A stretch of 64,000 nt of DNA, taken from positions 1-64,000 of the IMG/VR virus record IMGVR_UViG_3300018080_000105; one strand, 5' to 3'. Under the pieces are notes generated by a model, which was not told where the DNA came from, searched no databases, and saw only the letters and a program-made list of their open reading frames with translations. This document shows, in pieces, positions 53,853 to 62,371 of this stretch. How positions within the stretch are numbered: the stretch's first letter is position 1; the number at the start of each line of letters is the position of its first letter. This DNA is from a virus. The position numbers were made by a program, and so were the translations under genes.

Positions 53853-54161
53853 TTACGTAACGGCATTCAGTCCGGCGAAGCTCACCATATCCTGCGACTT
53901 CTTCAAGGTGTCAGCAACCGCCGCATCGAGCGGCGACAATTCCGTCACTGACTTCAAAAGGCTCATACTACCTTGCTGCACGCCCAATGTCAGCATGGCG
54001 GCGTTGGCCGCTACATCATTTCGAGCAGCCATCGCGTTGACTTCAAAGTTGTGACGCCCCATTGACAGAATCTGTGTCGTGATCTGGTCTGCCACTGCCG
54101 GGTCGAAATCCGGACGATCATCGTTGGCGTAGGCATTTGAGAATCCAGAATCAAAAGGCAT
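53853..54161 (-). CDS. Paralogous small protein B (102 aa)
   Basis: ATG 54161 (MPFDSGFSNAYANDDRPDFD) has an AAGGAG site. The shared core is 'DPAVADQITTQ', a helical middle, 'LTLGVQQ', then 'SPLDAAVADTLKKSQDM' and 'FAGLN', which aligns with the gene at 54249-54539. These are tandem duplicates, with the helices arranged in the same order. Function is unknown. Confidence 0.65.
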   Translation of the reverse strand: MPFDSGFSNAYANDDRPDFDPAVADQITTQILSMGRHNFEVNAMAARNDVAANAAMLTLGVQQGSMSLLKSVTELSPLDAAVADTLKKSQDMVSFAGLNAVT

Positions 54162-54189
54162 CGTATTCTCCTTGTGGTGAATCAAAAGA

Positions 54190-54217
54190 TGCCGCCCCAC
54201 CCGCAAGCAGGGCGGCA
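54190..54217 (-). terminator. Hairpin after paralog A
   Basis: An 8-bp stem (TGCCGCCC / GGGCGGCA) around a 12-base loop, followed by TCTTTTGAT on the minus strand, lies 31 bases past the stop of the 96-residue paralog. It is a plausible terminator or attenuator. Confidence 0.6.
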
Positions 54218-54248
54218 CCTATTACGTCGGCAGATCCTGCCGCATCAC

Positions 54249-54539
54249 TTAACCAGTGATGGCGCCGGACTTAGGAATCCCTGCCGCAGTATTCAAGCCA
54301 GCAAAGTGGCTCGGATCCTGTGACGAGCGGACGTTAGCAGCAGCAGCTGCTTCCATCGGGTCCAGTGAAGTCTGCTGCTTCAGACTTGCAGAGTTGATCT
54401 GCTGTACGCCCAGAGTCAGAACGGTACCCGCAGCGGCCGTCATGTTACGGTCCATTGCGCCGTTCAGCTGCTGAGCATTCTGTGCAGAAACCAGCGTCAG
54501 CTGAGTCAGCTGGTCTGCGATGGCTGGGTCCAGTGCCAT
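54249..54539 (-). CDS. Paralogous small protein A (96 aa)
   Basis: A 96-residue helical protein (MALDPAIADQLTQLTLVSAQ) with a good AGGAGG site. It aligns with 53853-54161 in the ADQ(L/I)T start, 'LTLGVQQINSASLKQQTSLD', and FAGLN end. A hairpin lies downstream. Tandem duplicates with separate leaders suggest an abundant structural or secreted product; no family is assigned. Confidence 0.65.
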   Translation of the reverse strand: MALDPAIADQLTQLTLVSAQNAQQLNGAMDRNMTAAAGTVLTLGVQQINSASLKQQTSLDPMEAAAAANVRSSQDPSHFAGLNTAAGIPKSGAITG

Positions 54540-54618: not shown

Positions 54619-56391
54619 TCAGAATTCGTCGCGAACAATCTTCTGGAGAATCTTGGAAACTCCGTCAGTGCCTTTGACGATCTCTGGTTCCCCCGTACCT
54701 CCAACGGGGTAGACGACGATCTGCGGCAATTCTTTGAACCGAAGTCCCTTGCCTTTCACGTCGTACAGGACGATGGCTGGATACTTGGCCTTGGCAGCTT
54801 CGTACTCACCCTTCATTCTGTTCCAATGGTCAGCGGAAGTATCCGTTACAAGTACCATGTGGTCAACGCCAGTGCTCTGCTGGAGCGCCCAGAGGACAGA
54901 AACGTCAACGTAGGCGGGACTGATGTAACGCCCTGATTCGACTTTGAGCGTGACGGCCGCCTCTGATGGATTATCCCGAAGCTCCCGTACCAATTCCAAA
55001 ATCTTAACCTGGTTTTCCTGAAGCCCCTGAATGCCCTGTAGCAACGATTCATGCTCACCGCTGGGTGCCGATAGCTTCCCAGACAACTCGTCCTGTTTAT
55101 CCGCCAGTCCCTGGATCAGTTTGATTAACTGCTCGTGATCCCTTCTCAACGAGTGCTGGTTCTCGATAAGCACGTTGATCGGATCCAATAGGCCAGGAGC
55201 CGGTGTCGGATTGTTGGCCGGCGGGCCTGTCGGCGTGTCCGGGTTGCCAGAAGGCGGATTGCCTGATGGCGGGGTGTCCGGCACAGAATCCGGGACAGGT
55301 TCAGTAACAGGTTCCGAAGGAGGAACAACAACGGGCTGCTCACCACCCAAATCTTCCGTGGGATGCGGGAAAACTTGCGGAGGCGGCGACTGCGGGCGGC
55401 TTCGAGGCGGCTGCGGCGAAACAGGGCGACGTGGCTGCGCGCGAGGCTGAGGATAGTATGGGTAGCATGGTTGCGACGGATAACACGGCTGACAACTCGG
55501 GGATGATGGCGGACAACACCAGGCATACGTTTCACTGACCTTCGTTCCGAGGAACGTTGTGATCGTGCCGGCATAGGTCCCTATCGATCCAGAGGAGTCC
55601 CCGCCCCAGAACACACCAACCAGTTTTCCGTTCGTATCGAACATCGGGCCGCCACTGTCACCTCTACGAAGATGACCAGACGCCACCAGCAACTGATTGT
55701 TGCCGCTCGTCACAAACTGATGCGAAGGGTGTCCCGGAACAAACTTACCAGGCGAGTCCGCTTTGTAGCCGGCGGAAGTGTAACCTTGCAGCGCGCCAAA
55801 GTGTGCCCGGTAAATGTTGCGTGTCCCGCCGAAACCCGCCACGCCAATGTTAGGCTCTTTATCTGGATCAATGATCTTCGTATTGATCTCCATCGGGACA
55901 GTGCCTTTAGGAGCATACACTGCCAACGCACACAAATCATTTTCCCAGTCAAGCGCCAGCACCTTGGCACTTGACCGCATGCCTTTGAACTCTGCGACCG
56001 GTTTCTGCGATTCGGCACATTGAATATCACCGCACTCAAAGATGTGAGCGCACGTCAGAATGACCGCGGTGACCCGTCCATCTTTTTCCGGACGAGTGGC
56101 GATAACCGTCCCAGTGCCCAGCGAACGAGTCCTGGTCATGTGCAGCCGCACGACCGAACTACGAACGCGATTGTACAGCGCAACCGCTTCTCTATCGCTC
56201 GCCTTCGGAGACCACACGGCACCGCCCGAAGCACGGTTACGCGCAACCTTGTAACTGCGCGTCGGGGAGTTCGGATCCTGTGGGACCCGAAACACATGAA
56301 ACCCTTCCGGATTGAACTTCACCGGGAGGGCGGCATAGGTCTGTGACACCAGCATGACCACTGCCACGAGAACGCTGAAAATCCGTTTCAT
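54619..56391 (-). CDS. Secreted trypsin-like serine protease with Pro-rich stalk (590 aa)
   Basis: Residues 1-20 (MKRIFSVLVAVVMLVSQTYA) are a signal peptide. The protease domain (about residues 60-290) carries the full triad: His116 in 'TCAHIFE', Asp152 in 'WENDLCAL', Ser246 in 'RGDSGGPM'. A Cys/Pro/Tyr-rich linker (residues 295-430) with repeated PxP follows, then a short coiled coil around 420-480 (for example 'LIKLIQGLADKQDELSGK') and a C-terminal alpha/beta domain. It should act outside the cytoplasm on proteins. The catalytic residues appear intact, so it is probably active. Phage-encoded members of this type are rare. Confidence 0.85.
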   Translation of the reverse strand: MKRIFSVLVAVVMLVSQTYAALPVKFNPEGFHVFRVPQDPNSPTRSYKVARNRASGGAVWSPKASDREAVALYNRVRSSVVRLHMTRTRSLGTGTVIATRPEKDGRVTAVILTCAHIFECGDIQCAESQKPVAEFKGMRSSAKVLALDWENDLCALAVYAPKGTVPMEINTKIIDPDKEPNIGVAGFGGTRNIYRAHFGALQGYTSAGYKADSPGKFVPGHPSHQFVTSGNNQLLVASGHLRRGDSGGPMFDTNGKLVGVFWGGDSSGSIGTYAGTITTFLGTKVSETYAWCCPPSSPSCQPCYPSQPCYPYYPQPRAQPRRPVSPQPPRSRPQSPPPQVFPHPTEDLGGEQPVVVPPSEPVTEPVPDSVPDTPPSGNPPSGNPDTPTGPPANNPTPAPGLLDPINVLIENQHSLRRDHEQLIKLIQGLADKQDELSGKLSAPSGEHESLLQGIQGLQENQVKILELVRELRDNPSEAAVTLKVESGRYISPAYVDVSVLWALQQSTGVDHMVLVTDTSADHWNRMKGEYEAAKAKYPAIVLYDVKGKGLRFKELPQIVVYPVGGTGEPEIVKGTDGVSKILQKIVRDEF

Positions 56392-56404: not shown

Positions 56405-57244
56405 TTACGACGGTTTGAGGGTGAGTTCCATTCCGTCCAGATTGATGGTGACCGTCCCTGTCACATCGAACGGCCCTTCAGGAAAGGCCGGAGCGCAAGG
56501 CTCAGAAGCATTGGGTGCCGGGGTTGGGGTTTCTTCCAAACCATAGACACGGGCCAGCCTGGCCTTGTCGCCTTCTTGTGGGTAGATCACCTGGGGATTG
56601 TAGTAAGGAGCCATCAGGTCGGCCGGATCAGCACTGTGCTCCAAGCCCATCAGATGGCCAAGTTCGTGCAACCACACGGCCCTCATAATGACACCTGGGC
56701 CGGACTCACGCAAGTTCCATGGCTCCGTATCGTCGAACATCGACAAAAGCTGAGGGTCGCCAGCCCTGCAAGGCAGCTCCGCCCAGGCCAGGACATTTCC
56801 GGGGCCGTCAAAGTCCCATCTACTGCCCCGTCCACGACCTACGCGTATATCTGCCTCGTTCCAATTATTGATTTCAACAAAGGTCTTACCCGTCAACGCC
56901 TCGTAGTAGGTGAACCCCTCCCGCACGATATTCTTGCTTTTCTCGACCTGCCCAGCCAACCGAAACTTGCTGCCAATCGAGTACGTGATGGTGTCCTTTT
57001 CCCATTTGCAATGATTCCCGTCAACCCTTACAGGCTGCCGCAGCGGGCCGTCGCCCCTCGCGCACCGAAACAACCCCATCGCCCGACGTGTCACCGGGCC
57101 AGCAATTGCATCCTCCACCAGCCCGTAGATCTTTTGCATCTGTACAATCGCTTTATCGAACTCATCGGCTGTCGGGTAACGTGAGAGCAGATACCCAAAA
57201 TGATGCAACCAGGCGATCGTCTTCTGCGGCGTATCAATGGGCAT
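56405..57244 (-). CDS. Matrixin-like zinc metalloprotease with cysteine-switch-like propeptide (279 aa)
   Basis: Residues about 1-65 are a peptidoglycan-binding-like propeptide ('LHHFGYLLSRYPTADEFDKA', 'MQKIYGLVEDAIAGPVTRRA') ending in FRCARGD, which resembles the PRCGVPD cysteine switch of matrix metalloproteases (Cys61 binds the catalytic zinc). The catalytic domain has the full zinc motif HELGHLMGLEH (residues 193-203) and a Met-turn (DLMAPYY, Met211). There is no signal peptide, so it may act after lysis or in the virion. The start overlaps the neighbouring gene's end by 11 bases. Confidence 0.85.
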   Translation of the reverse strand: MPIDTPQKTIAWLHHFGYLLSRYPTADEFDKAIVQMQKIYGLVEDAIAGPVTRRAMGLFRCARGDGPLRQPVRVDGNHCKWEKDTITYSIGSKFRLAGQVEKSKNIVREGFTYYEALTGKTFVEINNWNEADIRVGRGRGSRWDFDGPGNVLAWAELPCRAGDPQLLSMFDDTEPWNLRESGPGVIMRAVWLHELGHLMGLEHSADPADLMAPYYNPQVIYPQEGDKARLARVYGLEETPTPAPNASEPCAPAFPEGPFDVTGTVTINLDGMELTLKPS

Positions 57245-57917
57245 TCAATCGCTCCGAGTTCAAAGCTGCTGTGGCTACCGCTTCGCCGCCGGCATGCTGG
57301 CCGGCGATTGTAAACTGGTACTTGTAAAACAATGAGTACGTCAACATGGTCGGCGTTACCAGGTAATGAGGGCACCGCGGCACTGGATCGACACGGCCGC
57401 CCAAATGTGTAGCTAGACTGACGGCATGAGAACAGAACGGTTGACGGATAGGCTTACCATCTACAGGCAACTGGTCGTTTGTCGTTGGCGGGTACAACCG
57501 CCACAGAAACGGTGTACGACGGGCCGCCATTCGCCAGATACCGAACCAACCGTATTCGTGATCAGTGAGTCTTCGCATAGCGGTTGCCGCGCCGTCACCA
57601 TCAAACTCAGACCACCGCACCGTGTCAGGTGCGAACACATCAATCCGCTGTGGCTGTGATAAGTGATACGCCAACGTACGGCGCTGTCCGCCTTTGAACT
57701 CTCTCAACTCCAGCACGTCAATCTTGCCGCCGCCATTTTTGAGGAACATAGCACTGTGCGAGTGCACGCCCTGCGTACTATTACGGATCAATCGCGACAC
57801 AAACGTGTCAGACAGATATTGCCCAATCCACCCGCTCTGGATCCGTGACGCAGCATACTCCTCCGTGACCCAAAAAGGAGCCTCAACGTCAAACTGGCGA
57901 CCCCGAAGACCCCCCAT
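57234..57917 (-). CDS. Permuted NlpC/P60-like (YiiX-type) hydrolase (227 aa)
   Basis: From ATG 57917 (GGAGGTTGATC leader) the protein contains 'GVHSHSAMFLKNGGGKIDVL', with a His in the HSAM strand, and later 'RQPFCSHAVSLATHLGG', where Cys is followed by S-H at a helix start. The order His-then-Cys is that of circularly permuted NlpC/P60 (YiiX/DUF830-like) enzymes, which hydrolyse amide or ester bonds in cell-wall or lipid substrates. The remaining sequence is alpha/beta. Family call is inferred from this pattern. Confidence 0.6.
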   Translation of the reverse strand: MGGLRGRQFDVEAPFWVTEEYAASRIQSGWIGQYLSDTFVSRLIRNSTQGVHSHSAMFLKNGGGKIDVLELREFKGGQRRTLAYHLSQPQRIDVFAPDTVRWSEFDGDGAATAMRRLTDHEYGWFGIWRMAARRTPFLWRLYPPTTNDQLPVDGKPIRQPFCSHAVSLATHLGGRVDPVPRCPHYLVTPTMLTYSLFYKYQFTIAGQHAGGEAVATAALNSERLNAH

Positions 57918-61243: not shown

Positions 61244-62371
61244 TTATCGCACTCCCTGCAGGAAACGGTCCAATGGATGATGCACCAGTGGCTTCCGTTG
61301 ACCTGACAGGTATGAAGACAGCTGACGCATGGAACGATCTGGATCAGCAGCATTTGCCAGCCGATCCTGTGCGGCAGCCTCGCTGATTGCTCGGTCACCG
61401 CGATGCTTGACCGCCCCCACATGGTTTACCAGATTATCGAGCACTCCGCGAGTGTGGTCGTACTGAAACGGAGTCTGATTGATTGCATTCATGTAGACGC
61501 TGCCGGCCTGCTTGGGTTCGCCGTACGGTTTTCCTTTGTACTGGTACTTCAACGGCCCCAGCACATTAGTTGTACGAACATAGTCAGCCGTCAGCTCCTC
61601 GCCAGAGACAATGTCTCGCAGAGCCCGCATCTGGACATACCCGTCACCTTTGACAATTTCAGTGTTCGGACTGTCCGAGTGATTGGTGTAACGAGCGTCA
61701 TCTGATTGTTCATAGACGTGCTTGCCGTCTTCGTTATCCGGCAAAACTGTCATCAGGCGATCAACGATGATGTCGCCATCGCTGAACTTCTGCGCAGCGA
61801 ACAAACCTTTACCGTGAATAGCCGACTCCCCCACACGGACGGACCTCGCGGCCGCCTTTTGCATGTGGATCATCGACGGCTGTCGTCGTTTCTTCTTACG
61901 GATAGCAAACGTCACATGGAACGGATACTGCGGCGGGCCGAGGCCCAGGTTACGACGAAGCTCCATCAGCCCCGGCGACTTGGCTTCCAGCGCCCAGCAC
62001 TTGGAAACACCGTCCCACGTATGCGGTGTGATCTTTCGGACCACGCCCAGGTTGAACCCGAACATTTGCCCGCGTTCTTTGATCCCGTCCGGGCCGCCGA
62101 TCGATTCCAACTCTTCAGGACGCGCCACAGAGATGTGAGCGTTGTACTGCCCGCTGGAGTCCTGTTTCGGTTGCTCGACCCCGGGTTCGTCAAGAGCCTG
62201 AAACGCACCATTCCCGATTGCATTGGGAACGTCAAGCAAAAGCCATCCAGAGTTGGAAAGGTACAGCTTCCCTTTCATCGCATATGACAGCGGGGGACGT
62301 GCGTCCGCCTGTTTATCTCGCTGCGACAATAGAACAGCCGCTTCCCCGATATCGTATAACGATGCAGACAT
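61244..62371 (-). CDS. 2H-phosphoesterase/SET-domain fusion protein (375 aa)
   Basis: Residues about 30-160 hold two H-x-S/T motifs, H79-I-S81 in 'NAHISVARP' and H152-V-T154 in 'FHVTFAIRK', as in 2H phosphoesterases (LigT/Acb1-like), which cleave 2'-5' or cyclic phosphodiesters. Residues about 177-270 are a SET domain: 'IHGKGLFAAQKFSDGDIIV', 'NHSDSPNTEIV' (residues 230-240) and 'GEELTADYV' (residues 257-265), matching the AdoMet and lysine-binding motifs GKGLFA, NHS.PN and GEEL..DY. A K-x-A (HMQKAAARS) lies in the linker. The C-terminal 110 residues are helical. A SET gene in a phage is unusual. Confidence 0.8.
   Translation of the reverse strand: MSASLYDIGEAAVLLSQRDKQADARPPLSYAMKGKLYLSNSGWLLLDVPNAIGNGAFQALDEPGVEQPKQDSSGQYNAHISVARPEELESIGGPDGIKERGQMFGFNLGVVRKITPHTWDGVSKCWALEAKSPGLMELRRNLGLGPPQYPFHVTFAIRKKKRRQPSMIHMQKAAARSVRVGESAIHGKGLFAAQKFSDGDIIVDRLMTVLPDNEDGKHVYEQSDDARYTNHSDSPNTEIVKGDGYVQMRALRDIVSGEELTADYVRTTNVLGPLKYQYKGKPYGEPKQAGSVYMNAINQTPFQYDHTRGVLDNLVNHVGAVKHRGDRAISEAAAQDRLANAADPDRSMRQLSSYLSGQRKPLVHHPLDRFLQGVR

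Follow-up and report, generated by a model that had tools for sequence, protein, structure and literature searches.

The window, a 64,000-nt stretch of DNA read 5' to 3' on one strand, is part of a 184,021-bp virus contig (IMG/VR record IMGVR_UViG_3300018080_000105). The record is viral; the window carries genes for baseplate J, tail sheath and a multisubunit RNA polymerase, and the phage has DNA polymerase, ligase, ThyX and dUTPase genes of its own. At the position given in the original prediction lies, on the minus strand, an ORF encoding a 279-aa protein (the window matrixin) that starts with an ATG at 57244 and ends at 56405. The ORF overlaps the preceding gene, a GGAG ribosome-binding site is located 7 nt ahead of the ATG, and a stop codon abuts the ATG on its 5' side, which leaves no room for a concealed N-terminal extension or signal peptide. 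The GC and GC3 contents match those of other genes of the phage. The window matrixin is the single match to the Pfam M10 profile in the entire 184,021-bp record; the same phage encodes a second, 716-aa HELGH protein (L007 9176-11323, minus strand, corresponding to G000 111176-113323) that searches did not assign to M10. The features of the locus are as follows.

56405..57244, minus strand: putative matrixin zymogen gene (ORF, GGAG, Peptidase_M10)
57074..57223, minus strand: predicted three-helix prodomain, residues 8-57, resembling peptidoglycan-binding domains and MMP prodomains (PG_binding_1, model, proMMP alignment)
57050..57070, minus strand: cysteine-switch-like motif FRCARGD, residues 59-65, with Arg60, Cys61 and Asp65 (conservation)
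57011..57049, minus strand: linker GPLRQPVRVDGNH, residues 66-78, between the switch and the catalytic domain (low model confidence)
57008..57010, minus strand: Cys79 (co-occurs with Cys159)
56540..57007, minus strand: catalytic domain, residues 80-235
56735..56839, minus strand: S-loop region, residues 136-170, lacking the three structural-zinc His
56768..56770, minus strand: Cys159 (co-occurs with Cys79)
56636..56668, minus strand: motif for the catalytic zinc, HELGHLMGLEH (residues 193-203), with Ser204 of the matrixin type directly after it
56600..56617, minus strand: Met-turn and S1' wall LMAPYY, residues 210-215
56408..56461, minus strand: C-terminal tail VTGTVTINLDGMELTLKPS, with two strands predicted at low model confidence (265-269 and 272-276)
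57237..57917, minus strand: upstream neighbour, a protein with conserved His, Glu and Cys that is YiiX/NlpC-P60-hydrolase-like by motif only
54619..56391, minus strand: downstream neighbour, a predicted exported trypsin-like protease with a proline-rich linker (Trypsin_2, E=2e-12)

The catalytic domain matches Pfam Peptidase_M10 (PF00413) over the full length of the profile (positions 1-159; E=3.6e-24, 85.9 bits against a cut-off of 24). The HExxHxxGxxH motif plus Ser that characterizes M10A is present as HELGHLMGLEHS (residues 193-204), and the Met-turn contains Met211 (DLMAPYY). The FDGPG and FDDTE sequences, which may form a structural calcium site, are retained. The original prediction, which had called HELGHLMGLEH, a Met-turn and an FRCARGD motif including Cys61, is correct in each of these elements. 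It had also described an N-terminal peptidoglycan-binding-like region; by Pfam alone this description is weak (PG_binding_1, 20 bits, under the cut-off of 23), and it gains strength from a profile of relatives that aligns with MMP prodomains.

A single-sequence search returned karilysin, the best catalytic-domain match (2.7e-18), and many MMP catalytic domains, with the matches to proMMP-7, -9, -3 and -1 reaching into the prodomain. A profile built from ten relatives of the window matrixin aligned over its full length with proMMP-1 (6.6e-64), proMMP-9 (1.2e-59) and proMMP-3 (1e-58), and its RCGVPD fell on the proMMP switch, Cys on Cys. An AlphaFold model built from 27 sequences (pLDDT 84.4) places the prodomain helices at residues 6-15, 26-39 and 50-56, ahead of the catalytic domain, an order also found in the PDB and profile comparisons. 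The first 20 PDB matches of the model were proMMP zymogens only (8k5v, 1slm, 9csx and 1su3 among them), the best with E 1.7e-16 and a target TM of about 0.80. A search of the PDB with the prodomain half by itself found nothing. Since the model and profile matches cover both prodomain and protease, these data indicate that the fold of the whole zymogen, and not of the protease alone, is MMP-like.

Relatives came into reach only through a wider alignment: no match at E<=0.01 was obtained among 50,697 phage records when L043, L048 and the window protein served as tblastn queries, and scans of viral contigs with single sequences or a two-row alignment found no relatives. Two overlapping alignment-based scans of viral contigs yielded 48 and 80 loci, which together with the window formed 60 clusters at 80% identity; the prodomain-bearing viral set comprises 32 clusters, counting the window and excluding a bacterial-looking contig (L066). 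H193, E194, H197 and H203 are unchanged in 32/32 of these clusters, M211 is present in 94%, and P213 and Y215 are each present in 91%. Full invariance in the first 78 residues is confined to L13, R60 and C61. Position 65 is Asp in 31 clusters and Glu in one, and position 62 is Gly in 29, Ala in two and Met in one. The most divergent motif of the 32 is the window's own FRCARGD, with F for P59, A for G62 and G for P64; the consensus G and P of PRCGxPD thus differ, while its R, C and D are retained. Bacterial relatives of similar layout carry PRCGLPD (a Paenibacillus sonchi plasmid), PRCGVPD, PRCGFVD or PRCGTPD, and one bacterial protein (L012) has PRYDERPD and no switch Cys. The original prediction had named lack of Cys61 conservation among relatives as one ground for rejecting it, and the clusters show the opposite. 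Its reading of the protein, a matrixin zymogen bearing a motif like the cysteine switch, is supported by this conservation, by the proMMP-led PDB matches and by the full-length alignment to proMMP-1, -9 and others.

The window matrixin has cysteines at positions 61, 79, 159 and 250. C79 and C159 occur together in 21 of the 32 clusters, neither occurs in 11, and one alone occurs in none, with the caveat that the clusters are related by descent and represent fewer than 32 independent events. The simplest reading of this pattern is that Cys79 and Cys159 probably form a disulfide, which would leave Cys61 as a free conserved Cys. The C-terminal tail is also shared, with a GTIxINGxxYxLVP motif in relatives, and L035, L036, L043 and L074 have this ending; a search of the other proteins of this phage for the tail motif found no match.

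A structural zinc site composed of three His and an Asp has been stated to be present in all MMPs (PMC12587646). The three His are absent from the window matrixin and from the viral set sampled, and because this site is missing we class the protein as a Peptidase_M10 homologue rather than a canonical MMP. Bacterial relatives have an MMP-type S-loop (HGDG...LAHAF...HFDD). In one alignment, all three His were lacking in 22/22 viral sequences and present in 5/5 bacterial or bacterial-like ones. In 32/32 clusters, position 154 is occupied by Trp or Tyr and position 169 by Met, Arg, Lys or Leu, where bacterial relatives have His. In a tree of 32 catalytic domains from which very divergent or misread bacterial rows had been removed, 23 viral rows were split off by a 100/100 branch and the trait changed once; in an earlier, larger tree that included divergent bacterial rows, the viral group was not recovered (two changes), nor was it rejected (AU p 0.39). 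The sequences therefore support loss of the structural-zinc ligands across the whole viral group sampled. Bacterial sampling was thin (Acidobacteriota, Chloroflexota, Actinomycetota and one plasmid) and partly guided by patterns in the S-loop area, so bacteria with a viral-type matrixin may exist.

The viral matrixins are of two kinds. Type I proteins, including the window matrixin, have the prodomain and mostly lack a signal peptide. Type II proteins (the Tat-signal group) have an N-terminal RRxFL twin-arginine-like signal and no prodomain, and most contain a Cys in an RCG-like motif just ahead of the catalytic domain; counting type II and a few others, 21/26 non-prodomain viral clusters have Cys at the aligned position. 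Retention of this Cys in exported proteins despite loss of the prodomain suggests selection for latency before release. DUF1501 was found in 8/10 type II records tested and was sought in the window's phage, where it is absent; contigs on which it accompanies Tat-type matrixins are L037, L042, L049, L057, L059, L060, L054 and L064. Type II records also include one Planctomycete extracellular motif protein, one rIIA-like gene adjoining the matrixin, and several terminase matches. Taken with DUF1501, these genes make the type II carriers look like, and they likely are, phages of Planctomycetota. In addition, L040 encodes a second matrixin in the same phage (4240-5583, plus strand) that has a signal peptide and no Cys-switch motif, and L164, a 408,349-bp viral contig, encodes a type I matrixin and lacks the window's RNA polymerase.

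The window RNA polymerase is 53-56% identical to those of 11 large contigs with type I matrixins, the most complete of which are 157-235 kb. Its identity to the RNA polymerases of the cultured relatives Salmonella phage Arash and Vibrio phages D69, D148 and D181 is about 31%, and tblastn found no matrixin in these four phages. To avoid selecting contigs by their matrixins, we fetched 80 contigs by RNA polymerase alone. A type I matrixin lies about 5 kb upstream of the RNA polymerase in 54/80 of them, and a 55th has a distant M10 protein without the RCGLPD motif; several of the remaining loci end before the matrixin position, and for at least one, L264, the matrixin lies elsewhere on its contig. 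RCGLPD is present in all 54. Their flanks are also conserved and encode small proteins, either membrane or exported, together with a protein that is papain-like by motif alone, with no Pfam or PDB match, although this co-conservation in the sister lineage is due in part to close relationship.

The two neighbours of the window matrixin differ from those of the sister lineage. The YiiX-like upstream neighbour has no Pfam match, and its AlphaFold model (pLDDT 31) was excluded from evidence; L040 and L062, which are otherwise unrelated, have homologues close to the matrixin, and homologues also occur in the L100 and L101 records. The trypsin-like downstream neighbour begins 13 nt past the matrixin gene and has a signal-peptide-like N-terminus, a proline-rich linker of considerable length and an extra C-terminal domain. 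An exported trypsin-like protease is also found in L040; searches for relatives of the neighbour in 50,697 phage records and for a homologue in the sister lineage returned none. Activation of the matrixin by this adjacent protease was considered and is weakly supported, since its sequence has His at the S1 position, six residues ahead of the catalytic Ser, where trypsin has Asp, and the sister lineage yielded no homologue. A small protein adjoining the matrixin is common to L035, L043, L040, L062 and L074.

Together, our data make it quite likely that the window ORF encodes a phage pro-matrixin zymogen with a cysteine switch. Under the reducing conditions of the cytoplasm, Cys61 would bind the catalytic zinc through its thiolate, with a salt bridge between Arg60 and Asp65 keeping it in place as happens in proMMPs, and the enzyme would presumably be harmless during virion production. 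After lysis (or, in the Tat-signal group, export), either a partner peptidase or the enzyme itself, acting in trans, would cut the linker, probably within residues 66-78; alternatively, Cys61 could be oxidised or its thiol modified. Either event would take Cys61 off the zinc and leave the protease active. Outside the cell, a Cys79-Cys159 disulfide would form and pin the new N-terminus, and it may help to stabilise a domain devoid of structural zinc. The substrate would most likely be a host envelope or extracellular protein, whose cleavage would free progeny or clear debris. The place and role of action, with the enzyme latent inside the cell and switched on outside at about the time of lysis or following export, are a more tentative proposal to which we give somewhat less than an even chance. 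Points that count against the pro-matrixin reading are the divergence of the window's own switch motif, the lack of a signal peptide in type I proteins, which bears on the export route, the share of close relationship in the neighbour conservation of the sister lineage, and the different neighbours in the window. More doubtful still is the generalization that this branch is widespread and phage-specific, has given up its structural zinc (partly in exchange for a disulfide), and provides timed, self-protected cutting as large phages, among them phages infecting Planctomycetota, exit or open host cells.

Four other explanations were weighed against a latent phage protease. The protein could be a host-derived exported protease, a general fitness factor unlinked to lysis in which latency merely shields the producing cell. 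Bacterial relatives do share the zymogen layout and the host-like DUF1501 gene occurs on type II contigs, but the viral proteins group apart with full support in the cleaned tree and the gene is syntenic and retained through most of one lineage, making a host-derived role unlikely. A protease for maturation of the virion or prohead, working within the cell or particle, would fit the missing signal peptide, the proximity of the gene to RNA polymerase and structural genes, and the conserved C-terminal tail, which could tether the enzyme to the particle; it seems improbable given that the Tat-like relatives are exported and the neighbours are exported or membrane proteins and that known head-maturation proteases belong to other families. 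If the N-terminal domain truly bound peptidoglycan, it might direct an enzyme used in lysis or carried by the virion to the cell wall, with Cys61 structural and no zymogen formed. PG_binding_1 is the sole Pfam match of this region; many cell-wall proteins of bacteria contain similar domains, and weaker counterparts occur in Nitratiruptor phage lysozymes. However, MMP prodomains share this fold, the R-C-(G)-x-x-D sequence lies outside PG_binding_1 and yet is conserved, the proMMP profile and fold matches extend across prodomain and catalytic domain, and the Tat-signal group lacks the domain while mostly keeping the Cys, so we consider cell-wall targeting very unlikely. An inactive pseudoprotease or decoy, which loss of the structural zinc site might suggest, is scarcely credible with the catalytic residues invariant in every prodomain-bearing cluster.

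The proposed pro-matrixin shares the order and fold of prodomain, cysteine switch and catalytic domain with animal proMMPs (proMMP-1, -3, -7, -9 and -10; M10A). Unlike them, it has no signal peptide and no structural-zinc His, and it has FRCARGD and a short tail where proMMPs have PRCGxPD and hemopexin. Bacterial matrixins with a prodomain and PRCGxPD (the Paenibacillus sonchi plasmid protein, L013, L015 and L022) have the same zymogen layout and conserve R, C and D in their switch, but they are 26-35% identical to the window matrixin and retain all three structural-zinc His. Karilysin from Tannerella forsythia also keeps these His in the alignment, and it has a 14-residue propeptide with an aspartate switch (PMC6949598). 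Cysteine-switch latency has been demonstrated for promirolysin and promyroilysin, bacterial relatives of pappalysins and astacins (PMC6949598); these belong to other families and have short prosegments without an MMP-type prodomain. The Listeria Mtz-Tim pair, of phage origin, includes a phage-derived metzincin and sensitises cells to phage lysins (PMC8235301), but it differs in having a signal peptide and a TIMP-like lipoprotein partner, and the paper mentions no cysteine switch (PMC8235301). The best matches in a viral structure library were MMPs of granulovirus, nudivirus, iridovirus and ascovirus, which are virus-encoded matrixins whose insect-virus carriers are unrelated to this phage. Phage M10 proteins are already on record in BFVD (Lactobacillus phage 3-521, Synechococcus phage P60 and an uncultured Caudovirales phage), and an Acinetobacter phage record is annotated Matrixin.

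We found no description in the open-access literature of phage matrixins with an MMP-type prodomain and switch, or of MMP-like enzymes without structural zinc. The loss of structural zinc, the probable pairing of the other cysteines and the position of the gene, conserved across a phage lineage as a whole, go beyond the original prediction. An MMP-type zymogen with a cysteine switch, best known from animals, appears to be a standard gene in a lineage of large phages and to represent a natural MMP fold without structural zinc. Its presence there argues against the view that microbial MMPs are solely anti-animal-matrix enzymes (PMC12587646) and suggests that, besides cell-wall enzymes, some phages require a protease that stays locked until the right time.

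Several other genes of this phage were observed along the way. At window positions 61244-62371 (minus strand), 2H phosphoesterase and SET domains are joined in one protein, whose sister-phage counterpart combines 2H with a P-loop kinase-like part. Two small neighbouring proteins (53853-54218 and 54249-54539, minus strand) are 44% identical to each other and look like a recent duplication. Finally, HldE-like (sugar-kinase/cytidylyltransferase) and GmhB-like genes (G000 161806-163236 and 137718-138368; L010 and L008), names given by eye except for the Pfam matches to PfkB and CTP_transf_like, suggest phage-driven heptose synthesis.
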